A DNA stretch of 52,340 nucleotides from Phycisphaerae bacterium (GTDB taxonomy: Bacteria; Planctomycetota; Phycisphaerae; Sedimentisphaerales; Anaerobacaceae): the NCBI GenBank assembly GCA_028714255.1, contig JAQTMR010000007.1, positions 1 through 52,340 of the forward strand, in the 5' to 3' direction. This document shows, one piece after another, positions 24,025-40,674 of the stretch (its first letter is position 1; each line of letters starts with the position of its first letter). The position numbers were made by a program, and so were the translations under genes. The notes under the pieces are model-generated. The model was not told the DNA's origin. It did not search any database and saw only the letters and a list, made by a program, of their open reading frames with translations.

Positions 24025-24027
24025 AGC

Positions 24028-25353
24028 TTAATTTTCTCTGAAACGCTTAATGATAACAACATTATTTTGTCCGCCGAAGCCGAAAGATTCATTCATCGCG
24101 ATATCGACCTGCATTTTTCTGGGCTTATTCGGGACATAATCGAGGTCAAGCTCGGGAGCAGGGTCGTTTAGGTTCATAGTCGGCGGGACTATATTGTCCC
24201 GTATTGCCAGGACACATGTAATTAATTCGGCGGCACCAGCGGCCCCGATTAAGTGCCCGAGGGTGCTTTTGACGCTGCTGGCAGGGGTGTTTTTCGCTTT
24301 TTCCTTAAAGACTGCTTTAATAGCCTTGGTTTCTATCGAATCGTTTTCCGACGTGCTTGTGCCGTGTGTGTTTATGTAATTCACATCGCCGCAGCTAATT
24401 CCTGCATCAGCCAATGCCCGGGTCATCGCTTGTATTGCTCCTCTGCCTTCTTCGTGCATATCCGTGATTCTGAATGCGTCGGAGCTGCTGCCGTAGCCGA
24501 TGACTTCAGCCAAAATTTTTACCCCTCTTTTTTTCGCTGAATCCAGGCTTTCAAGAATAACTATCGCCGCACCTTCACCGATAACAAAACCATCTCTGCT
24601 GGCAGAGAATGGTCTTGAAGCTGTTTCGGGACTGTCGTTTCGCCTCGATAGCGCCGTAAGCCGGCTAAAACCAGTGATACCCAGCGGGTGTATCATCGAG
24701 TGCGCCCCGCCTGCAATCACCACATCCGCACCGCCCCGGCGAATTATCATCGTTGCTTCGCCGACCGATTGGGTGCTCGCTGCACAGGCGGTAAGACAGC
24801 TTCTTACAGGCCCGCGAGCGCCGGTGAGCATCGCAATATGAGCGGCAGGCATATTCGCTTCCTGTTCTAATTCGTGCATTGCTTTCATTTCTACCGCAGC
24901 GGTATGAGCCCATTTTGTCCAGTCCATCTGGTTTGTCTGGTTGTCCCACCCGGCTGCGATTGCGCCGAAAAATGCTTCGTGATTTGCCGCTCCTTCACCT
25001 GCTCCAAGATAAATCCCCATTCGTTTTCGGTCGATGCCGTCTGCGGGGGTGTCGGTTTCGACATCAATACCAGCTTGTTTGCACGCCTGAACCGCCGCTC
25101 CGACGGCAAACTTGCTTCCTCGATTGCCGTCTTTGTGCAGATTGGGGTTCTTCGTGAACTTTGTAAAATCGTAATCTTTTACTTCGGAACTAAATGTTGT
25201 CGGGAACGTCGACGCGTCGAAAATGGTAGTCTTGGCGGCTCCGCTTTTACCGGCCAGCACCGCCTGCCACATTGTTTCAACGTCGTGACCGAGCGGACAA
25301 ATAATCCCCATGCCTGTAATTACAACTCGCTCATTTTTTCCATCATGCGTCAT
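24028..25353 (-). CDS. fabF: Beta-ketoacyl-ACP synthase (KAS II type), catalytic
   Basis: This encodes 441 residues of the thiolase fold. It elongates acyl chains on ACP by decarboxylative condensation with malonyl-ACP. The full Cys-His-His triad is present: Cys190 in LTACAAST, His330 in INTHGTST and His367 in STLGHLIGAAG. The end FGFGGQNNVVIIK is typical. It lies six bases downstream of a second, altered ketosynthase, so the two probably form a heterodimer or act in succession, as in type II polyketide or ladderane-like systems. Slightly longer than E. coli FabF (413) through an insertion at about 135-170. Confidence 0.93.
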   Translation of the reverse strand: MTHDGKNERVVITGMGIICPLGHDVETMWQAVLAGKSGAAKTTIFDASTFPTTFSSEVKDYDFTKFTKNPNLHKDGNRGSKFAVGAAVQACKQAGIDVETDTPADGIDRKRMGIYLGAGEGAANHEAFFGAIAAGWDNQTNQMDWTKWAHTAAVEMKAMHELEQEANMPAAHIAMLTGARGPVRSCLTACAASTQSVGEATMIIRRGGADVVIAGGAHSMIHPLGITGFSRLTALSRRNDSPETASRPFSASRDGFVIGEGAAIVILESLDSAKKRGVKILAEVIGYGSSSDAFRITDMHEEGRGAIQAMTRALADAGISCGDVNYINTHGTSTSENDSIETKAIKAVFKEKAKNTPASSVKSTLGHLIGAAGAAELITCVLAIRDNIVPPTMNLNDPAPELDLDYVPNKPRKMQVDIAMNESFGFGGQNNVVIIKRFREN

Positions 25354-25359
25354 TTTAAT

Positions 25360-26718
25360 CTAATTCTCAAATTTCTTGAGTATAACCGCTGCTGTTTGTC
25401 CGCCATACGTATAGCCGCAACATAGAATGCAGCGGATGTCGGCTTTGACAGCTTCTTTAACGATGTTAAGATTGCATTCTGCTGCTTTTTTCGTGCAGTT
25501 TTTCGCAGCCGGTATAAGACTATCTCTCATTGCGCAAACCGCCGCGATGACATCGAGTCCGCCGCAGGCTGCTCCTGTGTTACTGAGCATACTTTTAGTT
25601 GGCCAGACAGGAATTCGTTTTGTTTCTGTACCCATCGCGGCCTCTATTGCTTTGGCCTCGGCAGCGTCGTCCTGCGGTATGCCAACGCCATGCGGGATTA
25701 TCAAATCTATGTCCTTGGGTGAAATATTGGCCTGTGCAATCGCATTCTCGATGGCGATGGTGAGACCATAGCCATCCGACTCAATATGTTCGTATGCCGG
25801 GTTTATACTGGTGCTTTGGCCGGTGCCGATGATTTCCGCGTAAATTCTTGCGCCGCGTTTGATTGCGTTATCGAGATTCTCCAGGACAACGATTCCGCCT
25901 CCGTCGCCGAATACCGAGCCGCTTGCCTCGGCGTCGAAAGGTCTGCATGCCGCTTCGCTGTCATCGTTATGTTGAGTGGTTGCTCTTTTAATCAGGCACT
26001 GACGCATTATCAATACGGGATTTATCTTCGATTCCGCGCCGCCGGCCAGTGCGATATCGCTGCTGCCGCGTGCAATAATCTCCGCTGCCTCGGCTATCGC
26101 GATATAGCCCGCAACCTCGGCACAGGTTATCGTGTTGCTCGGCCCTTCGATATCGTGAATAATACCTATATGACAGGCCAGCATATTGGGCAGGTATTTC
26201 AGCAGCCATAATGGTGTCACCAGGTCAAGACCATCTTTGCCCCATTTACGCATATCGAACTTGCCGTCTGCAATGCTGGCCGCTACTGCAGGGGCCATCT
26301 CAACCACGTCACAGCTGATAAGCCCCGCCCCCATATTGATTGCCATACGTTCCGGCGTCACGTTGATTTTTTCCGGGTCGATTCCCTTTGTGACAAGTCC
26401 GCTGTCAGTCATCGCCTCTTTTGCTGCTACAACGGCCAGTTCAATGTCTTTGGACATCAGCTTGACGGCCTTGCGATGGCTCTTCGGGACGTATTCCTGT
26501 ATCTTGTAATCAGGGACCTGCCCCGCTAATTGACAGTCGAAACCGGCAGGGTCGAACGCCGTGATTTTTTTTATTCCGCACGCCCCGGCACACAACCCTG
26601 CCCACATATCATTGACAGTTAATCCGAGAGGGCTTATAGCGCCAAGACCGGTTATTACTACGCGGCGATAGTCATCTGCCGTAAGGTATGCTGTGCACTG
26701 TGGACGGGCTGAATTCAT
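25360..26718 (-). CDS. Beta-ketoacyl synthase homologue with Cys-His-Asn active site
   Basis: This encodes 452 residues from the ATG at 26718 (a TTG at 26721 precedes it). The fold is the same as its neighbour (VVITGLGAISPLGL at the start, GYTYGGQTAAVILKKF at the end). The nucleophile Cys199 is kept in NTITCAEVAG and His343 in IIPHGVG, but the second histidine of the usual GHxxGAAG motif is replaced: the segment reads KSMLSNTGAACG with Asn380. A Cys-His-Asn triad is normal for KAS III, not for KAS I/II. The protein could be a condensing enzyme with changed priming chemistry or a chain-length-factor-like partner of the catalytic KS downstream. Confidence 0.88.
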   Translation of the reverse strand: MNSARPQCTAYLTADDYRRVVITGLGAISPLGLTVNDMWAGLCAGACGIKKITAFDPAGFDCQLAGQVPDYKIQEYVPKSHRKAVKLMSKDIELAVVAAKEAMTDSGLVTKGIDPEKINVTPERMAINMGAGLISCDVVEMAPAVAASIADGKFDMRKWGKDGLDLVTPLWLLKYLPNMLACHIGIIHDIEGPSNTITCAEVAGYIAIAEAAEIIARGSSDIALAGGAESKINPVLIMRQCLIKRATTQHNDDSEAACRPFDAEASGSVFGDGGGIVVLENLDNAIKRGARIYAEIIGTGQSTSINPAYEHIESDGYGLTIAIENAIAQANISPKDIDLIIPHGVGIPQDDAAEAKAIEAAMGTETKRIPVWPTKSMLSNTGAACGGLDVIAAVCAMRDSLIPAAKNCTKKAAECNLNIVKEAVKADIRCILCCGYTYGGQTAAVILKKFEN

Positions 26719-26723
26719 CAATC

Positions 26724-27200
26724 TTACTCCGATTCCACAGAAGATATGCCTTGCAGAAGTGATTTGAACGTATCGGTGAACACAAAGTTTTCTTTTGGGA
26801 ACTCTTTACCGGCCAGGTTCTGGTCGATATGGCTGAACATCAAATCTATCTCGGCGATTAATTTCTCCGCGCAGGTAATCCTGCCGCTTATGCTTGCCGC
26901 TTCGGGGGCAAGGCTTTCAATCTTTGCGGATAATTTCAGTGTGTCACCGGGTTTGACGTAATCGAAAAACACACACTTTTTTATTTTTGCAAGAATCACC
27001 TTTTCCTTGAAATCATTTGCTTCACCGACAAGTATTCCTGACGTCTGTGCCATTGCTTCGAGCATCAGGCACTCCGGCATAACAGGAAAGCCGGGGAAAT
27101 GGTCGTGCAAGTGCTCCTCGGCAAGCGTTACATTTTTCACCGCCACGGCACTTTCACCGCTGTGAAACTCAACAAATTTATCAATCCATATCCATCGCAT
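26724..27200 (-). CDS. FabZ/FabA-like 3-hydroxyacyl-ACP dehydratase (hotdog fold)
   Basis: This encodes 158 residues forming a single hotdog domain. The catalytic segment HDHFPGFPVMPECLMLEAMAQ (about 32-52) has His34 and Glu48, as in FabZ. It dehydrates beta-hydroxyacyl-ACP to the trans-2-enoyl form. It starts MRWIWIDKFVEF, like the second dehydratase MRFILIDKVISL at 27721-28185, so the two are probably paralogues. It lies between the ACP and the altered ketosynthase, with a five-base gap to the latter. Confidence 0.88.
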   Translation of the reverse strand: MRWIWIDKFVEFHSGESAVAVKNVTLAEEHLHDHFPGFPVMPECLMLEAMAQTSGILVGEANDFKEKVILAKIKKCVFFDYVKPGDTLKLSAKIESLAPEAASISGRITCAEKLIAEIDLMFSHIDQNLAGKEFPKENFVFTDTFKSLLQGISSVESE

Positions 27201-27275
27201 TTTTGTCTGCTAAAATCATCGGCAGGATTGTCCACTGTCAACCTGCCGATATTTTCTCAAAGGTAATTCGAATTA

Positions 27276-27671
27276 TTATGCAGCGTTCAGTTTGGTATCG
27301 ATGTAATTTACAATCGCACCGACAGTAAACAAATCGCCCAGTTTGTTGATGTCCGGGTTATTCTCGAATGCGGCCAGGTCGGTGTGCGGCATTTTCTCAC
27401 GCAGTTCCGTTAGTCCGGCCTCGGTCAGTTTCCCGTTATTTATGAAGCCGGGATTATTCATCAGGCTCTCGGCAGGAAACAATTCTTCTCGCGGAATCTT
27501 TATACCAAACGCTTTTTCCAATCGGAATACTATGTCCAGAAAATCGATGCTCTCAGCTCCGAGGTCGCCCATCAGGGTCGCTTCCGTCGTAACCTCATCG
27601 TTGTCAACTCCCAGTGCGTCAACCAGGACTTCCTGAACTTCCTGAAAAATCTCATCCCGATTCATTGCCAT
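27276..27671 (-). CDS. Acyl carrier protein with a long insertion before helix IV
   Basis: This encodes 131 residues from the ATG at 27671, preceded by AGGAGG at ideal spacing; an upstream in-frame start at 27713 is not needed. The phosphopantetheine serine is Ser41 in GAESIDFLD. Helices I and II (DEIFQEVQEVLVDAL, FLDIVFRLEKAFG) and the end (FTVGAIVNYIDTKL) match ACP. Between them about 45 residues (roughly 65-112, FPAESLMNNPG ... NNPDINKLG) are inserted, whereas a normal ACP has about 78 residues in total. Similar long ACPs occur in planctomycete gene clusters with paired ketosynthases. It carries the growing chain for the neighbouring enzymes. Confidence 0.9.
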   Translation of the reverse strand: MAMNRDEIFQEVQEVLVDALGVDNDEVTTEATLMGDLGAESIDFLDIVFRLEKAFGIKIPREELFPAESLMNNPGFINNGKLTEAGLTELREKMPHTDLAAFENNPDINKLGDLFTVGAIVNYIDTKLNAA

Positions 27672-27720
27672 AGTTACCTCCTGTATTTTCTTGTTTTGTC
27701 CATGAACTGCCAACTACGAG

Positions 27721-28185
27721 CTATCTTAGCAGTTCCCATCGTTCCTTCATACTTTCGATTATTTTTGCGTCGGTCGCCGCCATTGCAGAATTCTTGTCGG
27801 CAAGATTAAAATGCCTTAATCCGAACTTCGCTTCCAAAATCTGCTCACCGCCTGATTTACCGGCGCCGGTGAAACTACTTATATTTTCTTCTATTGTTCT
27901 TGCTTCAACGGTATATTCTATCTGAGTGCCCGGTGCTGCGAAACTCTTATATTTTACATTTCTTGCCTCTTCAAGCAATATCATGCTATGGGCGAAATTT
28001 TCTGTCTCCCGGACCAGCCACGACGCCGATTCAATCAGTCCTTCGAGCAGCAGCACACCCGGCAGCACCGGAAACGCCGGGAAATGGTCGGCTAAATACT
28101 CCTCAGCCAAAGACACACTCTTGACTGTCTTTATAGCCCTGCCTTTTTCCAGCGAGATAACCTTGTCAATAAGTATAAATCTCAT
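27721..28185 (-). CDS. FabZ-like hotdog dehydratase, second copy
   Basis: This encodes 154 residues from the ATG at 28185 (MRFILIDKV), matching the start of its paralogue; ATGs at 28206 and 28212 are less likely. The hotdog active segment DHFPAFPVLPGVLLLEGL has His34 and Glu48. The residues after the helix (IESASWLVRE) differ from the FabZ consensus AMAQ, suggesting another chain specificity or a partner role in a heterodimer with the 26724-27200 protein. It is the first gene of the operon dehydratase-ACP-dehydratase-KS-KS-serS, and is divergent from the GNAT gene. Confidence 0.83.
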   Translation of the reverse strand: MRFILIDKVISLEKGRAIKTVKSVSLAEEYLADHFPAFPVLPGVLLLEGLIESASWLVRETENFAHSMILLEEARNVKYKSFAAPGTQIEYTVEARTIEENISSFTGAGKSGGEQILEAKFGLRHFNLADKNSAMAATDAKIIESMKERWELLR

Positions 28186-28320
28186 AATCCCGGCTATTGT
28201 AGCCATATGCAATCATTTTTCCAGACTTTTTTTCCTTCCTTTTTTGTGCCTCCCGCAGATGAGCTTATTTCCATCAAAATTAATGTTGGAAAACTTATAC
28301 GATTGGATATACTTTTATCC

Positions 28321-28785
28321 ATGAATGTACGCAGCGCAAAAATTACTGATGTCAAAACCATTCATGCCCTGATTAACTCTTATGCCGAAGAGGATAAGAT
28401 GTTGTTCCGGTCAATGGCTGATATTTATGAAAACCTGCAGTCCTTTGTCGTTGTCGAACTAAATGGCGGGGTAGTGGGCTGCTGCGCTTTGCAGGTTATC
28501 TGGTCGGACCTGGCGGAGGTAAAGTCACTGGCAGTTGACGGAGAAAGCATGAAAAAAGGCGTAGGCACTGCTTTGGTGGCCGCCGCGGTCGAGAAATCCG
28601 CCGAACTGGGCGTGGCAAAAGTTTTTGCACTTACGTTATATCCTGAGTTTTTTAAAAAGCTCGGCTTTGAAACTGTTGAGAGAGACAAGCTGCCGATGAA
28701 GGTTTGGAGTGACTGTGCCAGATGCTCCAAGCAGCGAAAATGCGATGAAACAGCCGTCATAAAGAAGCTAAAAACGGAAAGCTAA
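28321..28785 (+). CDS. GNAT acetyltransferase, N-acetylglutamate synthase-like
   Basis: This encodes 154 residues from the ATG at 28321; upstream in-frame ATGs give an implausible leader. The GNAT fold is clear: VRSAKITDVKTIHALIN at the start, EVKSLAVDGESMKKGVGTALVAAA as the acetyl-CoA-binding motif A (about 76-98), and PEFFKKLGFETVER. The details MLFRSMADIYENLQSF and the cysteine-containing tail WSDCARCSKQRKCDETAV match the short N-acetylglutamate synthase group used for the first step of arginine synthesis. Together with argG in the window this supports an arginine role, but other amino-acid acetyltransferases cannot be excluded. Confidence 0.82.
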   Translation: MNVRSAKITDVKTIHALINSYAEEDKMLFRSMADIYENLQSFVVVELNGGVVGCCALQVIWSDLAEVKSLAVDGESMKKGVGTALVAAAVEKSAELGVAKVFALTLYPEFFKKLGFETVERDKLPMKVWSDCARCSKQRKCDETAVIKKLKTES

Positions 28786-28850: not shown

Positions 28851-29831
28851 CTATCCGACTTGGCGCTTTTGGAACAGGGCAACAGCCGATGCAAGTATAG
28901 CTGTTGTGTAGCAAACAGCGTATGTGGCGCTTATTGCGATATATTTTAGCGGGACTGTGATTTCACTGTCCTCGCTGCTTTCGTAAATCGCATCACTTAT
29001 CCAGAAAATCTGCAAATTCGGCACCAAAAACCTGCCTATTCTGGCCCACAATTGCGTATCCGCAAATCTGCCGAACGTATAGTCGCTTATAAGGCCCAAC
29101 AAGAAAATCCCAATGCAGACCGACAGCGTTACCACAATATTAAACCTGGCCGAGAACGCCACCGCCAGGGCCACGATTATAATGGCCGCGAACAACAACA
29201 ATACCGCCCCATAGACATCCAGTGCGTTTATGCCGTTATTTCGCGGATTAAACTGCCAGTTTTGGTCTATAAAAAATAGAAATACTATGCCCAAAGTGGC
29301 GAACATGCTGAGCAGCACGATGGCGGTTGACGAAAAATTCCAGTCGTAAACGTAGTTAAAAAAAGCACTTAGCAGAAATGTTGCTGTAACCACGGCCGCG
29401 GCGGTGCTTATAACCGTCCAGTCGGGCTCGTCGTTTGCCGAAAGCTGAACGCCGTGCCTGATTGCCATTAGCAGGGCGATAGTGCAGATATAATGTGCCA
29501 GAACCACTGCAGCGGCTACTCCCAAAAACTTTGCGATAATGAATATCGGACGTTGGACCGGTTTGCTAAGGACGGTAATTATAGTCTTATTTTCAATTTC
29601 CTCGGCTACTGCCCCGGATGCGGAAAATATCGCTATGAACAAGCTGGCCAGAAACAGCGTAGATAGCCCTATCTCTCGTAAAAGTTTGTTGTCTTCGCCC
29701 ATGGTGTACATCGCCAGGGATGGACTTATGAGAAATAGAAACAGAGCCGTAACAATTATCACGGCATAAACGGGCTGTCTCAGTGTCTCCGTAAAAGTAT
29801 TTTTTGCTATCGTAAATATTTTTTTATACAT
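28851..29831 (-). CDS. ABC-2 type transporter permease without adjacent ATPase
   Basis: This encodes 326 residues with about six transmembrane helices, starting with the ABC-2 pattern YKKIFTIAKNTFTETLRQPVY (residues about 2-21). A segment EEIENKTIITVLSKPVQRPIFIIAKFLG (about 77-104) is the cytosolic coupling region shared with the permease at 37448-38827 (KQKQMYTILTKPIRRFQLILGKLLG). No ATPase gene is next to it, so it may share the ATPase encoded at 36223-37455. Substrate unknown. It is divergent from the SPFH block. Confidence 0.87.
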   Translation of the reverse strand: MYKKIFTIAKNTFTETLRQPVYAVIIVTALFLFLISPSLAMYTMGEDNKLLREIGLSTLFLASLFIAIFSASGAVAEEIENKTIITVLSKPVQRPIFIIAKFLGVAAAVVLAHYICTIALLMAIRHGVQLSANDEPDWTVISTAAAVVTATFLLSAFFNYVYDWNFSSTAIVLLSMFATLGIVFLFFIDQNWQFNPRNNGINALDVYGAVLLLFAAIIIVALAVAFSARFNIVVTLSVCIGIFLLGLISDYTFGRFADTQLWARIGRFLVPNLQIFWISDAIYESSEDSEITVPLKYIAISATYAVCYTTAILASAVALFQKRQVG

Positions 29832-29974: not shown

Positions 29975-32035
29975 ATGGCAATATCATCCAAACGTGCTGA
30001 ATATGTAGCTCGGGCATCTTTGATTTTGAGCATTGTATTCTTCGGCATCATCTTTTTCGTAGGCCGATGGAGCGGATTATTCGCGCTTTCTGCGATTAGC
30101 TGGCTTATCCTCTCGGCAGCTCTGATTTGGTTCGTTCTCATTGTTCAGTTTCATCAGCGCAGCCTGGCCGAGCAGGAAAAACTCGATATGGGCCAATTGG
30201 CCGAGAGCAAGCAGGACTCCACAATATTCCAGGCAGGGGGGGAACGGGCGGTTATGTTTGCCGTTGCCCAGCGCAGACTCGAGTTGCTCGAAAAATGGTT
30301 CCTTCCTATATTCTCCGCAATTATAGCCGTTTACGAAATAGCCATTGGGCTGTACTTGTTAAGAGCAGTTTCGGCTGCTGCTGACAACGAGGCCGGGCAG
30401 CCTTTGATTTCTGCCGCTTGTATGACGGCCATAGCTTTCGTCAGCTTCATAATCTCCCGCTATGCTACCGGCATGTCGTCTCAGTCGTTGTGGAAACCCT
30501 TAAGGGCCGGCGGCAGCATTTTGCTCGGGATAGCTATTTTGTGTTTTGCAATGGCTATTGGCCTGGCGATGGCACAGTTCAAGATTTTCGTCGTGATAAA
30601 TGTAATCGACTTTATCATCCCGGTCTTACTGCTGCTTCTTGGCGCAGAAACCGCTCTCAATATCGTCCTCGACATCTACCGTCCGAGGCTGAAAGGCCAA
30701 TATGCCAGAAGCGCTTTTGACAGCAGACTGCTTGGGGTTATAAGTGAGCCGGGCGGAATATTCCGAACCGCCGCAAGCACCGTTGATTACCAGTTCGGCT
30801 TTAAAGTTTCTCAAACCTGGTTTTACAAACTCCTCGAAAAAGCAATTGTACCTTTGATTCTTTTTGCAGTAGTTACCCTGTATTTGTTGAGTTGTATTGT
30901 CGTAGTGGATCCGAACGAGGAGGCAATAATAGAGCATCTCGGCAATCCTTTAACCAAGGCCGGTGAGGTCAGGTACGCTGAGCCGGGCTTGACTTTCAAA
31001 TGGCCCTGGCCTGTCGATATCGCCTATAAGCATCCTACGAAAATGATTTCTGAAATCAGCATTGGTTTCGTCCCGAAGTACAAACAGGGAACTAAAGAAC
31101 CGGAGCGCGGGCCGTTGTTATGGGGGAAGACGCACTATGAGCAGGAATACCTTTTGCTTGTCGCCAGTGGGCAGACAGGCGGGATGTCCCCCGGTGCCGT
31201 ACCGGTAAGCCTGATAATCGCTACCGTTCCGGTTCAATACAGAGTTAAGGATTTGTATTCTTTCATTTATAATCATAACGAGCCGGAAAAACTTCTTGAG
31301 ACTATTTGTTATCGTGAGCTTACCAAATTTGCAGCCAGCGCAAAGATAGAAGTGGATGACCAGGCCGATGTGAACCAGAGCCTGTTTGGAGCCGGCCGTT
31401 CCGAAGCCCAGCGTATTTTAACCGGCAGTATTCAGGCCGCCGCTGACGAAGCGGGCCTGGGTGTTGAAATTGTCTTTATGGGCCTTGCCGGTATCCACCC
31501 GCCGCCGGAGGTCGCAGCGAACTATCAAAGGGTTATCGGGGCCGTTCAAATGAAACAGGCAATTATCCTTAGTGCTTATGCAGAGCGCAACAGAAATTTA
31601 AGTGCTCTCGCAGGTTCGGTAGAAGAGGCTGACAAGCTTTACCGTCTTGCTGCTGAATACCAGCAGGCTGAGGGGAAAAGGAAGCCTGAGGAAATCAAGA
31701 AGCTTACCGATGATTTAGATTCGGCCTTCGCGGAAGCAAAGGGCGATATCTTTAGCACGTTGCGGCAGGCGCAAAGCTATGCCTTTGAAAAGGCGACACT
31801 TGCTCAGGCCACGGGACAGCGATTTGACAGCCAGCTTAAAGCATACAGGGCTGCAAAAAAGATTTACAAAGTGGAACAGAGATTGGCGGTTCTTGAAGAG
31901 GCCCTTGAGAACATACGAAAATATGTTGTGGTTGCCGATGTGAATGATACACAGGTCTTTATATTTGATGCACAGGAAAAATTAACGCCGAGTTTATATG
32001 AAATAAGTGGTCTTGAGGAGAGCAGCGGAAAATGA
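29975..32035 (+). CDS. Large SPFH (band 7) protein with N-terminal multi-helix membrane region
   Basis: This encodes 686 residues. Unlike ordinary HflK (about 420), it begins with a roughly 290-residue region containing about six hydrophobic helices (near 15-35, 38-60, 105-125, 140-160, 178-205, 208-228). A further helix at about 290-312 (LFAVVTLYLLSCIVVV) is followed by the SPFH start VVDPNEEAIIEHLGNPL and EPGLTFKWPWPVD. The SPFH domain (about 312-560) is followed by a long charged coiled coil (about 560-660). SPFH proteins oligomerise into membrane cages or microdomains; HflK/HflC enclose FtsH. It overlaps the next SPFH gene by four bases, so they are translationally coupled. No protease gene is adjacent. 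Confidence 0.87.
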   Translation: MAISSKRAEYVARASLILSIVFFGIIFFVGRWSGLFALSAISWLILSAALIWFVLIVQFHQRSLAEQEKLDMGQLAESKQDSTIFQAGGERAVMFAVAQRRLELLEKWFLPIFSAIIAVYEIAIGLYLLRAVSAAADNEAGQPLISAACMTAIAFVSFIISRYATGMSSQSLWKPLRAGGSILLGIAILCFAMAIGLAMAQFKIFVVINVIDFIIPVLLLLLGAETALNIVLDIYRPRLKGQYARSAFDSRLLGVISEPGGIFRTAASTVDYQFGFKVSQTWFYKLLEKAIVPLILFAVVTLYLLSCIVVVDPNEEAIIEHLGNPLTKAGEVRYAEPGLTFKWPWPVDIAYKHPTKMISEISIGFVPKYKQGTKEPERGPLLWGKTHYEQEYLLLVASGQTGGMSPGAVPVSLIIATVPVQYRVKDLYSFIYNHNEPEKLLETICYRELTKFAASAKIEVDDQADVNQSLFGAGRSEAQRILTGSIQAAADEAGLGVEIVFMGLAGIHPPPEVAANYQRVIGAVQMKQAIILSAYAERNRNLSALAGSVEEADKLYRLAAEYQQAEGKRKPEEIKKLTDDLDSAFAEAKGDIFSTLRQAQSYAFEKATLAQATGQRFDSQLKAYRAAKKIYKVEQRLAVLEEALENIRKYVVVADVNDTQVFIFDAQEKLTPSLYEISGLEESSGK

Positions 32036-32925
32036 AAAACATAGCCATTACAATTTTTATCCTGCTTGTAGTCGCCATTATGGTGCTGTATTTTGTTTCG
32101 TTTCAGGTCAGGGAAATAGAATCTGCTCTGGTAACTACCTTTGGCAAGCCTACGCGTCAAATCACCGAGCCGGGCTGGCGTTTCAAATGGCCTGCTCCTA
32201 TCGAGCGGGTTTATAAATTTGATTCGCGGATGAGAGTTTTCGAAGCCGACCTCGGCGAGACAACAACCAGAGGGGCCGTTCCAATCATCGTGAACACCTA
32301 CGTCGTTTGGAAAATCGCCGAGCCGCTTGTATTTTTCAACGCTGTTGGAACTATCAAGGAAGCCGAAAACAAATTGCTCAGCCAGCTTAGTGATACACAG
32401 AATAAGGTAATCGGCATGCATGACTTCGCTGAATTCGTGAACAGCGACCCTGCGAAAATAAAATTCGAAGATATTCAAAACGAGATGCTCGCCGACCTTC
32501 AAAAGTCTGTCAGGGCTGATTACGGCATTGAAATCAAAACTCTCGGGATAAAGCAGCTCAAAATCAGTGAGGACGTCAGCAAAGACGTCTTTGCGCGAAT
32601 GCAGGCTGAGAGAAACCGTAAGACCGAAGCTACTATCGCCGAAGGAAATGCCGAGGCCGTCAGGATAAGAACTGACGCCGATTCGAAAAAGACGGAGTTA
32701 CTCGCCGCCGCAGAGGCAAGAGCAAAGGCAATACGTGCCGAAGGTGACGCCGAAGCCGCGAAATATTATAAGTTACTCGAAGAAGACCCTGAATTCGCAA
32801 TTTTTCTGCGGAACATCGAGGCTCTTAAAAAATACCTGGAGAACAGGTCAACTATCGTCTTCAGCGCTGATACAGAGCCGTTCAAACTGTTAAAGGAAAT
32901 ACCGGATATAACGCCTAAAAAATAA
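32032..32925 (+). CDS. hflC: HflC-like SPFH membrane protein
   Basis: This encodes 297 residues. One N-terminal helix (about 3-24) leads into the SPFH domain (REIESALVTTFGKPTR, EPGWRFKWPAPIERVYKFDSR). The C-terminal coiled coil contains AEARAKAIRAEGDAEAAKYYKLL, and the end resembles HflC closely (EDPEFAIFLRNIEALKKYL, then STIVFSADTEPFKLL). The family partners HflK to form a cage around the FtsH protease in the inner membrane. The start ATG overlaps the stop of the preceding SPFH gene (ATGA). It is the shortest and most canonical of the three SPFH proteins here. Confidence 0.88.
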   Translation: MKNIAITIFILLVVAIMVLYFVSFQVREIESALVTTFGKPTRQITEPGWRFKWPAPIERVYKFDSRMRVFEADLGETTTRGAVPIIVNTYVVWKIAEPLVFFNAVGTIKEAENKLLSQLSDTQNKVIGMHDFAEFVNSDPAKIKFEDIQNEMLADLQKSVRADYGIEIKTLGIKQLKISEDVSKDVFARMQAERNRKTEATIAEGNAEAVRIRTDADSKKTELLAAAEARAKAIRAEGDAEAAKYYKLLEEDPEFAIFLRNIEALKKYLENRSTIVFSADTEPFKLLKEIPDITPKK

Positions 32926-32937
32926 TTTCGATTTTAT

Positions 32938-34218
32938 ATGCACGTACATAATCACCATAATAACGAAGTTATGAAACCACAGTCACCCGGCAGAAATGCC
33001 GGTGATGAGTTTGACGCCGCCGGCAAATCCCTGTCGGAGGCATTACGAATCAGCTTTATTATCCTCAAGGTAATAATGGTTGTGCTCGTTGTTGTTTTTA
33101 TCGCTTCGGGGTTCAGGACTGTTGAGCCTGATGAGCAGGCGCTTGTTTTAAGATTCGGAAAAATTCGCGGCGTGGGAGAAAACAGAATCCTCAATCCGGG
33201 GTTGAAGTGGGTGTTCCCATATCCGATAGACAAAATCATAAAAATACCGGTGGCTAAGAAGCAAAATTTACCGATAAATTCGTTCTGGTATTATCAGCGG
33301 CCGGAGGAATTACTCCCCCAGCCTCCGGGAGCCAGAATTCGGGTGCCGGAGACATTGGACCCTGTAAAAGATGGTTATTGTATTACCCGAAGTGAAGAAC
33401 AAAGCCAAACTGGTTTGGCAGGGAATGATTATCATATTGTTCATTGCAAATGGCAGCTTACCTATAACATCGATGACCCCGAACGTTTCTTTAAGAATAC
33501 TTATACTGATGATACGAAGCCGGGGCAAAGTTACGCTGATGTTATAGCAAAAAGTATAAAGCCGTTACTGGAACGGCTGTTCGAGGATGCGGTTGTTTCT
33601 GCTATGGTTCACTACACTATTGACGAGGCGATTTCGAGTCAGGACAGAATCCCAAAACATGTTAAAAAATTAATGCAGGAAAAATTAGACCAGATAGAAA
33701 GCGGAATAGCAGTTGTATCGGTTCAGCTCACTGATATAACCTGGCCTCGGCAGGTTGATAATGCGTTCCTGGCCTCTATCAAGGCAAGCCAGGCAAGCCA
33801 AAGGACTATTAGTCAGGCTAAGGGTTATGCTGAAAACACTCTCAACGAAGCTGCAGGTCCCGTTGCCGGTCAGCTTTTCGAATCTCTTAAGAAAGAAACT
33901 GCCGGCGAAGAGGACGAATTGCTGTGGTCTGAATTGGCAGGCCAGGCTCAGGAAAAAATCGCAGGTGCCAGGGCATACAGAACGAAAGTGGTGGAAACCG
34001 CTAAAGCAAATGCCGAATACCTCCAGAAATTACTGCCCGAGTATCGCAAACGGCCCGAGCTTGTTGTTCAAAAAATCTATCAGGATGCCATAGAATATAT
34101 CCTTAATAACGTGGATGAGAAAATTATAATTCAGCCCACTGAAGGTGCCAGAGGCAAAGAGATTAGGGTCTTGCTTAACAGAGACCCAAAGATAAAACCG
34201 AAATCCGAGGAAAAGTAA
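32938..34218 (+). CDS. hflK: HflK-like SPFH membrane protein
   Basis: This encodes 426 residues. A cytosolic His/Asn-rich start (HVHNHHNN) and polar region precede one transmembrane helix (about 38-60), then the SPFH domain with VEPDEQALVLRFGKIRG and NPGLKWVFPYPIDKI. An insertion of about 45 residues (about 105-150, WYYQRPEELLPQPPG ... CITRSEEQSQ) sits within the SPFH domain. The C-terminal half is a long coiled coil. Length and topology match HflK. It follows the HflC-like gene by 12 bases, but the usual hflK-hflC order is reversed, and a third SPFH gene stands upstream. Confidence 0.85.
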   Translation: MHVHNHHNNEVMKPQSPGRNAGDEFDAAGKSLSEALRISFIILKVIMVVLVVVFIASGFRTVEPDEQALVLRFGKIRGVGENRILNPGLKWVFPYPIDKIIKIPVAKKQNLPINSFWYYQRPEELLPQPPGARIRVPETLDPVKDGYCITRSEEQSQTGLAGNDYHIVHCKWQLTYNIDDPERFFKNTYTDDTKPGQSYADVIAKSIKPLLERLFEDAVVSAMVHYTIDEAISSQDRIPKHVKKLMQEKLDQIESGIAVVSVQLTDITWPRQVDNAFLASIKASQASQRTISQAKGYAENTLNEAAGPVAGQLFESLKKETAGEEDELLWSELAGQAQEKIAGARAYRTKVVETAKANAEYLQKLLPEYRKRPELVVQKIYQDAIEYILNNVDEKIIIQPTEGARGKEIRVLLNRDPKIKPKSEEK

Positions 34219-34242
34219 AACTTAGGATGCAAAACACAAAAT

Positions 34243-36168
34243 ATGGCTCATGACCACTTACATTTGAAGGACGACATTGCTGCCGAACACACTCGCGGCA
34301 AGCAAATCCGCGTAAGCATTGCGATGCTGGGTACTTTGGCAGGCGGAGTGTTGCTGATAAACAGCCGATTAGCGAGTTTCTTTTACGGCAGCGGCAGTTT
34401 CAATGCCGAATTTCTGGCTATGGTCGGTGCAATACTGCTTGGTACTCCCATTGTTCTGCACGCGGTAAAAACTCTTATAAAAAAAGAGATGCATATGGAT
34501 GAATTAGTGGCATTGGCGATAATTGCCTCTTTTGCCACGCAGAACTATATTACCGCAGGGGTCGTTGCTTTCTTTATGCTTCTAAGCCAGCTCATAGAAA
34601 GCCGGTCTGCTCTCGGCGCCCGTGCTTCCATTGAATCGCTCATTAAACTCACGCCTACCCGGGCAAGTCTGATTGAGAAGGATGGTTCTGAAAGAGAAGT
34701 GAAAGTCAGCGCTCTTCGGGCCGGCGATTGCATCAGGGTTCGCCCAGGCGACAACATATCCGCCGACGGCGAAGTTATAAAGGGTTTCAGTTCCGTTAAT
34801 GAAGCGACAATAACCGGCGAATCGCTCCCTGTCGATAAAGTGCCGGGAATGCAGGTCTTCGCCGGAACAACGAACTTCACCGGTGCACTTGATATCACCG
34901 TAACAAAAGCCGGCAAAGATACAACGCTCGGGAAGGTTCAGTCGTTGATTATGCAGGCCGAGCAGACAAAGATACCGATTATGCGGATAATCGACAGCTA
35001 TGTTAAGTGGTACACGCCGACCGTTCTGATGATTGCAGGTATTGTCTTGTTCTTCACCGGCGATATCAACAGGGCCATTACGATACTTGTTATTTCATGT
35101 CCCTGTGCGTTGATTTTAGCGACCCCGACTGCGATGGTTGCTGCGATTTCCGCTTCAGCCAGACTTGGAATCCTCATAAAAAATGTCGCCGACCTTGAAA
35201 ATGCCGGCAAGATGACTGCTATGGTATTTGATAAAACCGGCACCGTAACGACCGGCCGCTTGTATGTAACAAAATTAACGCCCGCTGAAAACATTGACCC
35301 GGCGGAACTGCTCTCTGTCGCTGCTTCTGCCGAACGGATGAGCAAACACCCGGTAGCAAGGGCTTTGCAGGAAGTGGCAAAAGAGGCCAATCTTACTCTG
35401 TCCACGGCGGACAACTTTAAAGAAACGCCGGGCAAAGGTATAACCGCCGTCATCGATTCAGCTAAAATTATTCTCGGAAGAGACTCGTTCCTTGAAGAAA
35501 ACAACGTGGATGTAACCACTGTTGCCGCTCCGGGCCTTCATGAAAAGCAGGGGTTCAGCACACTCTATGTGGCAAAGGATTCCAGGTGTATCGGCTGGAT
35601 TGGTTTGCAGGACAAAACCAGGCCCGAAGCACACCAGGCTATTGCTGAGCTGCTTGACCTCGGCATAAAAAGGATAACTATGCTTACCGGGGACAGGGAG
35701 GAAGTTGCCAACCGTGTTGCTGCCGAATTGGGCTGTACCGATTTTAAGGCCCAGTGTTTGCCGCAGGACAAACTCTCGATTGTTGAGCAAATTAAGTCCG
35801 ATGGACATACAGTTACCGTTGTTGGCGACGGCATAAACGATGCGCCGGCGCTGACGGCTGGTGATCTTGGTATCGCAATGGGGGCCGCAGGAAGCGATGT
35901 CGCTATAAATTCCGCCTCTATCGCACTTATGAGTAATGATTTGAGGCGGCTGCCTTTCCTCGTTCGCCTTTCACGGAAAACCAGAAACGTTATTAATCAG
36001 AATCTTTGCTTTGGAGTTATGTTTATCGTTCTTGGTATTGCTGCTGCCGCTGCTGCCTGGCTGCCTGCTATTTACGCCGCCTTTCTGCATTTCGTCGGCT
36101 CGTTGCTTGTCGTTTTTAACAGCGCTCGGCTTGTCCGATTCGGCGAAGAGCTTAGCCACGAACCATAA
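34243..36168 (+). CDS. P1B-type heavy-metal-translocating ATPase
   Basis: This encodes 641 residues. It exports or imports a soft metal ion with ATP. Key motifs: TGES (about 185) in the actuator domain; the transmembrane CPC in VISCPCALILATPT (about 287); DKTGTVTTG with the phosphorylated Asp (about 330); HP in SKHPVARAL (about 367); and GDGINDAPALTAGD (about 527). There is no N-terminal HMA metal-binding domain; instead the first residues are His-rich (MAHDHLHL). The last helices read AAFLHFVGSLLVVFNSARL and do not match the clear copper (MxxSS) or zinc (DxG) signatures, so the metal is uncertain. It lies 24 bases after the SPFH genes, implying co-expression. Confidence 0.93.
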   Translation: MAHDHLHLKDDIAAEHTRGKQIRVSIAMLGTLAGGVLLINSRLASFFYGSGSFNAEFLAMVGAILLGTPIVLHAVKTLIKKEMHMDELVALAIIASFATQNYITAGVVAFFMLLSQLIESRSALGARASIESLIKLTPTRASLIEKDGSEREVKVSALRAGDCIRVRPGDNISADGEVIKGFSSVNEATITGESLPVDKVPGMQVFAGTTNFTGALDITVTKAGKDTTLGKVQSLIMQAEQTKIPIMRIIDSYVKWYTPTVLMIAGIVLFFTGDINRAITILVISCPCALILATPTAMVAAISASARLGILIKNVADLENAGKMTAMVFDKTGTVTTGRLYVTKLTPAENIDPAELLSVAASAERMSKHPVARALQEVAKEANLTLSTADNFKETPGKGITAVIDSAKIILGRDSFLEENNVDVTTVAAPGLHEKQGFSTLYVAKDSRCIGWIGLQDKTRPEAHQAIAELLDLGIKRITMLTGDREEVANRVAAELGCTDFKAQCLPQDKLSIVEQIKSDGHTVTVVGDGINDAPALTAGDLGIAMGAAGSDVAINSASIALMSNDLRRLPFLVRLSRKTRNVINQNLCFGVMFIVLGIAAAAAAWLPAIYAAFLHFVGSLLVVFNSARLVRFGEELSHEP

Positions 36169-36222
36169 TAGAGATGCGTCAGTTGCATCGCATTCGGGAT
36201 ATTAAATACGAGATAAGAAAAT

Positions 36223-37455
36223 ATGGAATATGCCGTTGAAATTCTTTCTTTGACCAAAATTTTCTCCGACTGGTGGGGCAGGGACAGGGTTTATGCCGTT
36301 GACGACCTCAATTTACAGATTCACCACAATGAAGTCTTCGGTCTTTTAGGCCCCAACGGCTCAGGCAAATCCACAACACTGAAAATACTGCTCGGCTTGC
36401 TTTATCCGACTAAGGGCAAAGTCCTGTGTCTCGGCGGGGAAGCTGCTAATCCCAAAATTAGTGCTCGTATAGGTTTTATGCCTGAAGAGTCTTATCTTTA
36501 CAAATATTTGAACGCACGTGAAACACTGGACTTTTACGGCAGATTATTCGGCCTGCCCTCTAAAGTGCGGAAAATGCGAATCGAAGCTCTGCTCGATATG
36601 GTCGGCCTAAAGGCCGTCGCAAACAGACCCGTTGGGACTTTTTCAAAAGGTATGGCTCGAAGAATTGCTCTCGCTCAGGCCCTCATAAACGACCCCGACC
36701 TCTTAATGCTCGATGAGCCGACAACGGGACTCGACCCCATCGGAACAAGGCAGATAAAGGATTTAATCATCGAACTTGCCAAGCGAGGCAAAACAATCCT
36801 GCTTTGCAGTCACCTCCTTGCCGATGTCGAAGATGTATGTGACAGGATTGCGATTCTTTACGGCGGCAAAATCCATGCCGAGGGCAAAGTCAAAGAGCTT
36901 TTACAGCAGACAAACAAAAGGCAGATTAATACCGGCTCCATCAGCGATGCCGCTGTCGATAAAATCCGGCAGGTACTCAGGGACGAGCAGGCCGACTGTG
37001 TTGTTACTTCACCAATGGATAAGCTTGAAAGTTTTTTCGTCCGGACCGTTGCCGCGGCCCAGCAGAATTCCTCGTCCACGAGCGGCGCAGTTAGTACCAC
37101 TAAAATCGGTCATTTTCTTGCCCCTGATGCTCATCCAGAGAACATACTCGACAAACTTGTCTCCACGCCGGTATCACGGGAAGTCCCCTCGAAATCCCCG
37201 GCAACCAGGCACGTTGTTCCGCTTGAAACTTCTGAACCTAAAGCCGATGAGCAGCTTCTTGGCAAGCTGACCGAGCAGACCGGTCCTGCTGAATCCAAAC
37301 CCGCCGTCAAAACAAAACCGGTTGAACCGGAAACTCCTCAGAAAGAACAAGTCAAAAAGAACATTTTAGACCAGCTCACAGACCGTTCATCCGGCCAAAG
37401 CGTCAACACAGAGCAGACCGACAAGCCGCCGGCAGGAGACCCCGGCAATGCATAG
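36223..37455 (+). CDS. ABC transporter ATP-binding protein with long disordered C-terminal tail
   Basis: This encodes 410 residues. The ATPase domain (about 1-235) has Walker A GPNGSGKST, a degenerate signature FSKGMARRIALAQ in place of LSGGQ, Walker B LLMLDEP, the D-loop TGLDP and the switch histidine in LLCSHLL. The remaining 175 residues are low-complexity, rich in Pro, Lys, Glu, Ser and Thr (PAESKPAVKTKPVEPETPQK), an unusual tail for this family. It overlaps the permease gene by eight bases and must work with it; it may also serve the lone permease at 28851-29831. The substrate is unknown; GldA/CcmA-like exporters are the nearest type. Confidence 0.92.
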   Translation: MEYAVEILSLTKIFSDWWGRDRVYAVDDLNLQIHHNEVFGLLGPNGSGKSTTLKILLGLLYPTKGKVLCLGGEAANPKISARIGFMPEESYLYKYLNARETLDFYGRLFGLPSKVRKMRIEALLDMVGLKAVANRPVGTFSKGMARRIALAQALINDPDLLMLDEPTTGLDPIGTRQIKDLIIELAKRGKTILLCSHLLADVEDVCDRIAILYGGKIHAEGKVKELLQQTNKRQINTGSISDAAVDKIRQVLRDEQADCVVTSPMDKLESFFVRTVAAAQQNSSSTSGAVSTTKIGHFLAPDAHPENILDKLVSTPVSREVPSKSPATRHVVPLETSEPKADEQLLGKLTEQTGPAESKPAVKTKPVEPETPQKEQVKKNILDQLTDRSSGQSVNTEQTDKPPAGDPGNA

Positions 37456-38827
37456 TATCTGGGCTGTTGCCACAAATACTCTGAAACAGGCCGTCAGGAT
37501 GAAAATTGCCCTTGTCTTTATAATCCTGCTGTTCATCCTGCTGCCGCTTATGGGTGCTTCTATGACAGGTGACGGCACTCTCAAAGGCAGACTCCAGACC
37601 TTTGTAAGTTATGGCTTTTCACTCACCGACCTTTTACTCTCTTTGCTTACCATAGTAGTTTCGGTTTATTCGTTGACCAGTGACATCAAGCAAAAACAAA
37701 TGTACACCATTCTTACCAAGCCTATTCGCCGTTTCCAGCTTATTCTTGGCAAACTTCTCGGCGTAATATTGCTGAATGTGATTTTGCTCGTTCTTTTTTC
37801 TGCTGTAATATACGCCATCGTTATTTATACCCCGAAATTCTACAAAGCCGGCCCGGACGAACTTGCACAGGCCGACAATGAGTTTTTCACCGCAAGGGCC
37901 GGCTTGACCCCTCCGGAAGTCGATGTCAAACAAGAGGTTATGGATACTTATAACAAACTCGAAAAAACCGGACAACTGCCCATCGGCGTCTCTGACAACA
38001 AAATGGCGAGTGAAAGTTATATCGAAGCTCTTACACAGACTATAAAACTTGGCAAACGGGCTGTTGTGGTTGGTCACGATTTGGTATGGGAATTCAATAA
38101 CGTTAAACCTTTCGACCCCAATCAGAACTTGTTTATAAGGTTCAAATATGATGTTTCGGTAAATCCGCCCGACCTGCAGGTGTTTGGCAAATGGTTCGTA
38201 GGTGATGACCGTCAGGTTAAGTATGCCACAGGAATTCAAACTCCAATTTATACTTTTGACCGCAAAGACCTCATTCGCACTTTTCATGAGATAGTAGTTC
38301 CCGCTGATGCCGTGGCCGAAGACGGTTACCTGGCTGTCGGATTCTTCAACGTTCCTCTGAACAATACCGTTATAATCTTTCCGCCTCAGGAAGGTCTGGA
38401 GGTGCTTTATAAAGCGGACACCTTCACCGCTAATTTTCTAAGAGCTGTTTTTTTAATTCTGTTCCGTTTGATTTTCCTTGCTTGTTTGGGAATATTAGCT
38501 TCGACTTTCCTTTCGTTTCCCGTGGCCATACTGTTTTGTCTTGTAATCTTCTTCACCGGAACCGTCAGTGAATTTTGCCTGGAGTCCTTTACTTTTCTAA
38601 GTAGAAACTTGAGCAGTGTATATTCCTATACTATCAGGCCGCTCGTTCTGCTTCTGCCGCAGTTTGATAAATTCAGCCCCGTAAAATTCCTGGTCCCTGC
38701 GAGATTATTAAGCTGGTCTTTTTTGGCCGAAGTTGCCTTTTCCCTGGTTTGCGTTAAGGCGCTTTTACTGTTGCTTGCGGCTTTGCTTATTTTCAGGTAT
38801 AAAGAAATAGCGAAAGTTATAGTCTAA
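37448..38827 (+). CDS. ABC-2 type transporter permease with large extracytoplasmic domain
   Basis: This encodes 459 residues. Helices lie at about 17-38, 50-75, 98-120 and then, after a soluble region of roughly 200 residues (about 125-325), at about 330-355, 360-385 and 430-455. The coupling segment DIKQKQMYTILTKPIRRFQLILGKLLG is typical of ABC-2 permeases. The soluble region (FDPNQNLFIRFKYDVSVNPPDLQVFGKWFVGDD) is beta-rich and probably periplasmic, recalling the Gld-type permeases that carry exported domains. It is translationally coupled to the ATPase gene upstream. Confidence 0.88.
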   Translation: MHSIWAVATNTLKQAVRMKIALVFIILLFILLPLMGASMTGDGTLKGRLQTFVSYGFSLTDLLLSLLTIVVSVYSLTSDIKQKQMYTILTKPIRRFQLILGKLLGVILLNVILLVLFSAVIYAIVIYTPKFYKAGPDELAQADNEFFTARAGLTPPEVDVKQEVMDTYNKLEKTGQLPIGVSDNKMASESYIEALTQTIKLGKRAVVVGHDLVWEFNNVKPFDPNQNLFIRFKYDVSVNPPDLQVFGKWFVGDDRQVKYATGIQTPIYTFDRKDLIRTFHEIVVPADAVAEDGYLAVGFFNVPLNNTVIIFPPQEGLEVLYKADTFTANFLRAVFLILFRLIFLACLGILASTFLSFPVAILFCLVIFFTGTVSEFCLESFTFLSRNLSSVYSYTIRPLVLLLPQFDKFSPVKFLVPARLLSWSFLAEVAFSLVCVKALLLLLAALLIFRYKEIAKVIV

Positions 38828-38883
38828 AAAATAAATAAAAGTATTTCCTGGAGCACTTTGGATTCAGAGTCTTTGCTTTTCTT

Positions 38884-40674
38884 ATGCGTTTACGCGACAC
38901 AATAATCTGGTTTGTCTGCATTGTGCTTGCGGTCTCTTTGTTTGTTGCCGCGGGTATGCAGCTTGACTACATAAATTCCCAGCGCAAGCAGATGAAATTG
39001 ATAACTAACGAGCCTCTTCAAAATGCTCCGCCTTCGCTGGCGTTTGCAACGGTTGCTATGGGTGCTTTCCGGGGCCTGCTTGTGGATATGTTATGGCTTA
39101 GGGCAGACAAACTAAAAGACCAGGGTGAATTCTTCGACGCAAAACAAATTGCCGAGTGGATAACCACCTTACAGCCTCGTTTCGCGACTGTCTGGGAGTT
39201 TCAGGCCTGGAATATGGCCTATAACATCTCCGCTGCGATACCTGCGACACAGCCGGATGAACGTTGGCGATGGGTAAAAAACGGCTATGAACTGCTTCGT
39301 GACCAGGGCATTCCGCTGAACCCAAAAAGCATTCTGCTCTATCACGAGCTTGCCAGAATATTCCAGCACAAAATGGGTTCTGTCTCGGATGATGCGCACA
39401 AATATTACAAGCTCCAGCTCGCAATGGCGATGGAGCCGCTGCTTGGGTCGGCGGATAACCAGTATTTCGAGAACCTTGTTAAGGCTCCATCGGACTGGAA
39501 GCAGATTATAAAAGACCCTAATATTGCTTCCTTGGTTGCCGCCTTGAAATCCGCCGACAAAACGTTCGACGACGAGGGCGACTTCGTAAGTAACTACTTG
39601 TCCTTAAGACAAAATCCTGCCAGATTCAATCCTGACGCCTTTAAGGTGATAGACAATTTCAGGGGCACGGAGACAATCGGAAAATTTGATATTTTCGCCA
39701 GGGCTTATTATTTGCGAAACACATGGAAACTTGACCCTGTCTTAATGCAGCAGTTGAATAAAACTTATGGCCCTGTCGATTGGAACGACCCCAATACACA
39801 TTTACCTTTGGATTGGAGGCACCCGGACACGCACGCAATCTACTGGGCGGTCAAAGGCTTGCAGGTCGCGGGGAAGAAAGAATTTTCCGCAGCTGAAATT
39901 AATACCGACCGTATCGTAGGCCATAGTTTGCAGGACCTCTTTCGCAATGGAAAAATATTTATCTACGATGTGCCGGCTGAAATATCTTCGGACCCTTGCA
40001 CGCAAACACCGCAGGCAGAATTATCGAAGGCAGTGAGAAAAGAAATATTCTTGCGTCCGGATTTGAGGATGTTCGAGTCGTACAACGAGAATGCGTTAGC
40101 GAAAATCGAAAAATATGATTATCTCAAGGATATAAAGACAGGTAGTCTTCAATCCCTTAAAACCGGCCATCGAAATATGCTCAAAAACGCCATCTTTTCC
40201 TTATATCAGGCCGGCCATATTCAGCAGGCCCAAAAAATCTACGACCAGATGAGAGAGCTTTATCCGCAGGATGAATTCAAAGTCCCCCTTGTTGTCTTTG
40301 TCAGAAACCGTCTTCGCGAAGAGCTCCAAAACATTACAATCGATAATGCGAAAGAAATTGTGCAAATGATGTTACGGGAAAGCTATTTCAGATATGCGAT
40401 GCACGATGACGACGAGGCCTTTGGCAGAGAAAAAATGGCAAAAGAAGTTTACGACCATTACCGGTCTGTGTACCCGGATGAAGACAGGATTAACCTGCCC
40501 GATTTAGCCCTCTTAAGGTACCTTGCGCTTATGGATTTCTTGAATGACCAGACGTATCCTCCGAATATGAGACTGGCTCTGTATAACCGCATAAAATTGG
40601 AAAGGCCCGAACTCGCCGAACAGCTTAAAAAGCAGGAGGAGCAGTTTCTTAAACAACTTGAACAGTCAAAATGA
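38884..40674 (+). CDS. Membrane-anchored helical-repeat protein of unknown function
   Basis: This encodes 596 residues with one N-terminal transmembrane helix (about 8-28). The rest is predicted to be outside the cytosol and helical, with TPR-like segments (GLLVDMLWLRADKLKDQGEFFDAKQIAEWITTL, and HNAI-like repeats near 435-470: AIFSLYQAGHIQQAQKIYDQM). The conserved-looking opening ATVAMGAFRGLLVDMLWLRAD is distinctive. I do not know a function. Its place 56 bases after the ABC ATPase-permease pair suggests it is a periplasmic partner of that transporter. Confidence 0.78.
   Translation: MRLRDTIIWFVCIVLAVSLFVAAGMQLDYINSQRKQMKLITNEPLQNAPPSLAFATVAMGAFRGLLVDMLWLRADKLKDQGEFFDAKQIAEWITTLQPRFATVWEFQAWNMAYNISAAIPATQPDERWRWVKNGYELLRDQGIPLNPKSILLYHELARIFQHKMGSVSDDAHKYYKLQLAMAMEPLLGSADNQYFENLVKAPSDWKQIIKDPNIASLVAALKSADKTFDDEGDFVSNYLSLRQNPARFNPDAFKVIDNFRGTETIGKFDIFARAYYLRNTWKLDPVLMQQLNKTYGPVDWNDPNTHLPLDWRHPDTHAIYWAVKGLQVAGKKEFSAAEINTDRIVGHSLQDLFRNGKIFIYDVPAEISSDPCTQTPQAELSKAVRKEIFLRPDLRMFESYNENALAKIEKYDYLKDIKTGSLQSLKTGHRNMLKNAIFSLYQAGHIQQAQKIYDQMRELYPQDEFKVPLVVFVRNRLREELQNITIDNAKEIVQMMLRESYFRYAMHDDDEAFGREKMAKEVYDHYRSVYPDEDRINLPDLALLRYLALMDFLNDQTYPPNMRLALYNRIKLERPELAEQLKKQEEQFLKQLEQSK

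Follow-up and report, generated by a model that had tools for sequence, protein, structure and literature searches.

Introduction

The closest known counterpart of the locus described here, in which three SPFH genes are followed by a P1B-type metal ATPase gene in a 52,340-nucleotide stretch of Phycisphaerae bacterium DNA (contig JAQTMR010000007.1, hereafter the window), is the hmtA locus of Pseudomonas aeruginosa (PA2439-PA2434). There, PA2439 belongs to the HflK family, PA2438 is HflC, PA2437 is of the HflC family and PA2435 is HmtA, and the locus is induced by zinc depletion (PMC4542158; proteomics in PMC11761036). The PA2439 promoter is shifted by Zur (PMC8531726); a review lists hmtA as not Zur-bound and says that import needs confirmation (PMC10393844). 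HmtA was reported as a zinc/copper importer by Lewinson 2009, as related in PMC8456098. In strain PA14, a three-SPFH operon, PaFlo5-7, which is thought to be horizontally acquired and whose deletion has mild effects (PMC13086221), is probably the same locus as PA2439-PA2435. In the literature that we found, the SPFH genes beside hmtA are listed with no metal-transport role assigned, the PA14 SPFH study does not mention hmtA, and no link between SPFH or HflK and P-type ATPases was found for Planctomycetota. Compared through the gene descriptions in the literature, the hmtA locus has HflK/HflC-type SPFH genes and then a P1B ATPase, as in the window, which adds ABC-2 and tetratricopeptide repeat (TPR) genes.

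A membrane scaffold and a metal pump also share an operon in Mycobacterium, where PacL1 is encoded with the zinc exporter CtpC, a CPC-containing, P1B6-like ATPase (PMC9374683). This system resembles the window in that a scaffold with a (here putatively) cytosolic metal-binding tail and such an ATPase lie in one operon. Unlike the window scaffold, PacL1 is a small protein with a single transmembrane (TM) helix and is not an SPFH protein, and flotillin is dispensable in that system; no Pfam match to DUF1490 or DUF6110 (PacL scaffold) was found among the cluster proteins. Escherichia coli HflK/HflC, which works with FtsH, shares the SPFH domains and the predicted topology, and HflK and HflC structures are the top matches, but it has two subunits, hfq and hflX as neighbours, and neither a metal pump nor a domain like that of cation diffusion facilitator (CDF) proteins. 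Finally, the CDF zinc transporters (YiiP, ZnT1/3/7/8 and SLC30A10) have the six-helix transmembrane fold that is predicted for the large SPFH protein of the window (Z up to 20), which differs from them in that the metal-site positions are replaced and an SPFH domain stands in place of the CDF C-terminal domain.

The purpose of most bacterial SPFH proteins is a long-standing question. Here, we propose that the P1B ATPase works with the three SPFH proteins in a single dedicated metal-transport complex, to which we give a probability of about two in three. The cassette is compact and mobile, its three SPFH proteins share a single obvious client in the metal pump, and one of the three has a membrane domain that resembles a transporter. 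The idea that an SPFH cage serves a specific client thereby becomes directly testable. The cassette also suggests what the SPFH genes next to hmtA in P. aeruginosa, so far unexplained, might do.

The SPFH and ATPase genes of the window

The genes and domains concerned are as follows.

29975-32035, + strand: large SPFH protein, 686 amino acids (aa), with a CDF-like six-helix membrane domain, a seventh TM helix, an HflK-like SPFH domain and a coiled coil
29978-30691, + strand: CDF-like six-helix domain of the large protein (residues 2-239), fold match to YiiP 8f6k
30842-31936, + strand: HflK-like SPFH domain and coiled coil of the large protein (residues 290-654), HflK 7vhq Z 16.6, Band_7 at 310-537
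32032-32925, + strand: HflC, 297 aa, TIGR01932 above cut-off, start overlapping the large gene by 4 nucleotides (nt)
32938-34218, + strand: third SPFH protein, HflK-like (hereafter HflK), 426 aa, with the N-terminal His-containing tail MHVHNHHNN
34243-36168, + strand: P1B-type metal ATPase, 641 aa, TIGR01525, with the His-containing start MAHDHLHLK and LHFVGS in the last TM helix

A sequence-only reading of this DNA had described an extra-large SPFH protein, an HflC-like protein, an HflK-like protein and a metal ATPase in tandem, and the open reading frames bear this out, with 24 nt between the HflK and ATPase genes. The four open a run of seven genes, all on the + strand (29975-40674), spaced in turn by a 4-nt overlap, 12, 24 and 54 nt, an 8-nt overlap and 56 nt. 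This tight spacing suggests that the seven genes are one operon; promoter and terminator scans gave no higher counts than shuffled controls, and this holds for the terminator-like sites within the operon. All three SPFH proteins have Pfam Band_7 matches. HflC scores above the cut-off of its own family model (142 vs 134.4 bits), while the HflK-like protein and the large protein fall under that of the HflK model (135.5 and 68.9 vs 159.4 bits). The ATPase scores 568 vs 346 bits with TIGR01525 and has CPC at residues 286-288 and DKTGT at 330-334.

In the 2.41-Mb, 98.9%-complete genome, the three cluster genes are the only Band_7 genes and the cluster ATPase is the sole P1B ATPase. Elsewhere, the genome encodes one FtsH with the periplasmic domain FtsH_ext, one ZnuA-like protein and one CDF-family protein. 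The SPFH proteins could thus be ordinary HflK/C proteins that chiefly modulate FtsH, with the ATPase and ABC genes as neighbours in a general membrane-quality operon; that these are the only SPFH genes, that an FtsH with a periplasmic domain is present and that HflC passes its model all speak for this. The distribution of the ATPase gene, described below, speaks for the dedicated complex.

Linkage of the ATPase to the SPFH genes in relatives

Neighbourhoods were fetched and annotated with profiles built in this analysis, and linkage was counted where the SPFH genes had sufficient flanking sequence on either side. The ATPase gene is linked to the SPFH genes in 45/46 loci of the same order, 36/47 of other Planctomycetota and 32/37 of Verrucomicrobiota, and the adjacency on which the sequence-only reading was built is thus conserved in related genomes. 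It mostly lies directly after HflK, and in 14 of the 113 linked loci it is found on the other flank (rearranged). Since the genomes checked have only one to five P1B ATPases each (one has none), we estimate that such adjacency would arise by chance in about a percent of cases or less. The large SPFH protein was present in 41/41 sampled relatives, and a search with its profile was positive for 60 of 244 Planctomycetota genomes (E <= 1e-30) and, at 1e-25, for 79 of 194 from the phylum Verrucomicrobiota. In a set of 57 related loci, all from named genomes, contigs of sufficient length keep the block (ABC-2 permease)-large SPFH-HflC-HflK-P1B-ABC ATPase-ABC-2 permease-TPR, with a single exception, a block without the ATPase.

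The loci fall into types A to D. Type A loci have the gene order of the window, the first permease being divergent or co-directional. In type B loci (L098-L105, L119), the ATPase gene is relocated to the far side of the divergent permease. Type C loci (L137-L142, L145, L146 and several Verrucomicrobiota) consist of the four genes alone, without ABC or TPR genes, and type D loci (L084, L108, L111, L113, L120-L124, L127) have the SPFH and ABC genes without the ATPase. These architectures indicate that the common core is large SPFH, HflC, HflK and P1B ATPase, and that the ABC/TPR module is a frequent, separable extension. In the three type D genomes checked, an orthologue of the ATPase sits elsewhere (L200, L205, L209), and its loss was therefore rejected there. 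An SPFH cage that mainly serves the ABC-2/TPR exporter, with the ATPase as a passenger, would fit type D, where the ABC and TPR genes remain beside the SPFH genes and the ATPase has moved off. However, the ABC and TPR genes are absent and the ATPase is kept in many large-genome Planctomycetota, in several Verrucomicrobiota and in the annotated plasmid loci, and we find this explanation very improbable.

At L171, L193, L194, L197 and L131, the large SPFH gene is solitary, with no HflC, HflK or ATPase gene beside it. In one further genome (G018), it is split: the codons for residues 1-537 lie 0.9 Mb apart from those for the last ~110 residues and the operon remainder (L153, L154), which resembles an inversion or an assembly error cutting the gene.

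Plasmid cassettes and phylogeny

When 72,556 plasmids were searched with the large SPFH protein of Burkholderia and, separately, with its ATPase, both searches returned the identical 10 records: seven from Rhizobium, and those of Burkholderia ubonensis, Paraburkholderia sprentiae and Klebsiella aerogenes. Where these records are annotated, the genes run large SPFH-HflC-SPFH-P1B and overlap their neighbours or nearly do so, and the B. ubonensis cassette is carried on a conjugative plasmid and flanked by insertion sequence elements. As a control, four canonical hflK-hflC pairs on plasmids were inspected, and a P1B ATPase adjoined 0/4 of them. In a tree of 84 P1B ATPases, all sampled SPFH-linked ATPases fall in one clade (support 100) and the 21 other P1B ATPases of these genomes fall outside. 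Four seemingly unlinked ATPases are also found in the clade: three are the type D orthologues and the fourth, from Brocadiaceae (L213), looks unlinked owing to a contig break, since the cluster's ABC ATPase gene comes next to it.

The SPFH tree has three groups, one per gene position, with many weak branches. Since the large protein groups with canonical HflK in it (97), the suggestion that the gene order is reversed seems doubtful: large-HflK and then HflC would be the usual order. The extra gene would then be the third one. For each of the three SPFH genes, planctomycete L145 is the sister of the plasmid cassettes (100, 99 and 94), as it is, together with L146, for the ATPase, which fits transfer of the cassette as a unit.

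Altogether, these results indicate that the SPFH-ATPase linkage is real, old and mobile. A dedicated scaffold with its pump is therefore the best reading, and in this form the earlier idea of an SPFH membrane system serving a transporter is partly supported. The CDF-like domain, the ABC-2/TPR module, the proteobacterial plasmid cassettes and the equivalent hmtA locus are additions to that idea. Against HflK/C proteins that chiefly modulate FtsH, the ATPase is the partner kept in the minimal four-gene cassettes and on plasmids, and the CDF-like domain and the His tails (see below) are left unexplained. Moreover, in plasmid hosts such as Klebsiella, the chromosome normally provides hflKC anyway, which counts against this role as well, and we regard it as quite improbable.

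A few plasmid neighbourhoods have features of their own. Aquibium oceanicum plasmid NZ_CP018172.1 (L233) carries an HflK-HflC-HflK set without a metal ATPase, adjoining a peptidylprolyl isomerase gene. In P. sprentiae, a gene for the copper chaperone PCu(A)C and a DUF2946 gene lie just upstream of the cassette (L221 1505-1954), which could hint at copper rather than zinc in that host. No close relatives of the Klebsiella cassette DNA were found in the E. coli genomes searched.

A predicted CDF-like domain in the large SPFH protein

The AlphaFold2 model of the large protein (79 sequences, pLDDT 87, pTM 0.56) combines seven TM helices with an SPFH domain and a coiled coil. In this predicted model, residues 2-239 match the CDF transmembrane domain (YiiP 8f6k, Z 20.2, root-mean-square deviation 2.6 over 201 residues), and the next-ranked matches are mostly YiiP, ZnT and SLC30A structures with Z 15-19. 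By Foldseek alone, the CDF family ranks directly behind SPFH structures. An hhalign comparison with CDF gave an E value of 3.8e-4 and a probability of 15%, co-linear across the whole domain and better than control cluster profiles, and Pfam Cation_efflux was joint first among weak matches in 5/62 sequences (best 0.0011), the window protein not being among them. The CDF metal-site residues (HxxxD/DxxxD in TM2 and TM5) are absent: TM2 has hydrophobic residues and TM5 has LRAGGS (176-181) at these positions, replacements that are conserved in most of the 79 sequences, while Glu225 is invariant across all of them. Because the metal-site residues are replaced and the sequence matches are weak, we class the domain as CDF-like in fold and do not count the protein among CDF transporters. 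If the SPFH domain is periplasmic, as it is in HflK, the seven TM helices would place the N-terminus of the large protein in the cytoplasm.

A bolder idea is that the large protein is a CDF-transporter/HflK fusion that builds the pump into the SPFH cage, so that ions would pass along a path shared by the degenerate CDF domain and the ATPase and be exchanged in the periplasmic dome, a closed chamber. This we think unlikely; if true, it would amount to a metal transporter of a new class, with SPFH cages taking part in transport directly.

His tails and ATPase motifs

The ATPases begin with a conserved His-containing segment (MAHxHLH...). At type B loci, the N-terminal tail of HflK has HDHGHDH repeats with up to 23 His, and the L140 tail has 27; that of the window HflK has 4 His and would be cytoplasmic by analogy with E. 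coli HflK. His-rich tails are found on HflK in the Planctomycetota-Verrucomicrobiota-Chlamydiota group, and on HflC and the pump instead in the proteobacterial cassettes. An HflK or HflC tail with at least 4 His occurs in 33/119 linked loci vs 0/12 loci scored unlinked (Fisher test, 0.037, with related sequences uncorrected), one of these 12 (L112) being actually linked. Linked ATPases mostly have CPC, and a His is present in the last TM helix in 53/63 of them (HN in 26) vs 2/21 of the other P1B ATPases, 13 of which have Met at this place.

The same complex could also pump outward, as an efflux platform: the ATPase would be a metal exporter that the SPFH proteins gather or stabilize, as PacL1 does with CtpC. 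Nearly all characterized P1B ATPases are exporters, the cluster ATPase is the only one of its genome, the linked clade resembles the "P1B6-like" CtpC (PMC9374683) in having CPC together with the last-helix His, and cytosolic His tails would fit handing the ion to an exporter. On the other side, zinc depletion induces the known counterpart locus of proteobacteria, whose HmtA reportedly imports metal, and the window genome has a separate CDF-family efflux protein. An efflux platform is possible, and we would advance it only tentatively. By analogy with P. aeruginosa HmtA, uptake under metal shortage is slightly favoured over export.

A proposed dedicated metal-transport complex

For the dedicated complex that we prefer, the following arrangement can be proposed. 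By analogy with E. coli HflK/C, the SPFH subunits would assemble at the inner membrane into a ring- or dome-shaped structure on its periplasmic side, with the ATPase sitting in or beside the SPFH membrane patch. The most likely task of the CDF-like domain of the large subunit would be to dock the cage to the pump or to help hand ions over to it. At the cytoplasmic mouth, the His-rich cytoplasmic tails, whether on HflK, HflC or the pump, may gather the ion or take it over. Zinc, or an ion like it, is the most likely metal.

Several points weigh against this proposal. The ATPase is absent at 17 loci with a visible neighbourhood, ten of which are one Phycisphaerae type (D) and five the large gene alone, and the adjacency is therefore not essential. 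The CDF likeness is one of predicted fold, with weak support from sequence, and the association of His tails with linkage is borderline and suggestive only. No convincing Zur-like boxes or conserved palindromes were found upstream, in a search made without reference to Zur boxes specific to these phyla. Lastly, with the genome's only HflK/C genes in the cluster and a normal FtsH present, the SPFH proteins may have a role with FtsH.

Neighbouring genes

The SPFH and ATPase genes are accompanied by the following genes.

36223-37455, + strand: ABC exporter ATPase, operon extension, conserved in most relatives
37448-38827, + strand: ABC-2 type permease, PF12679 just above cut-off (27.6 vs 27.2 bits), conserved
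38884-40674, + strand: membrane-anchored TPR-like helical repeat protein, model pLDDT 90, conserved
28851-29831, - strand: second ABC-2 type permease, divergent in the window, upstream of the large SPFH gene

The two ABC-2 permeases, the single ABC ATPase and the TPR protein (28851-29831 and 36223-40674) make up a module that is conserved across Planctomycetota and Verrucomicrobiota. In several distant relatives (L096, L097, L114, L125), the second permease gene is co-directional with the large SPFH gene and directly upstream of it. The model of the TPR protein is a generic TPR superhelix that gives no functional hint. A role in anti-phage defence was considered and set aside, since PADLOC gave only generic matches to the ABC ATPase. 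Further upstream, a divergent block (22750-28785) encodes a seryl-tRNA synthetase-like protein, two ketosynthases, two FabZ-like proteins, an acyl carrier protein and an acetyltransferase. Of 19 long related loci, about 8-14 have this block next to the operon as well, which may point to a link with lipids.

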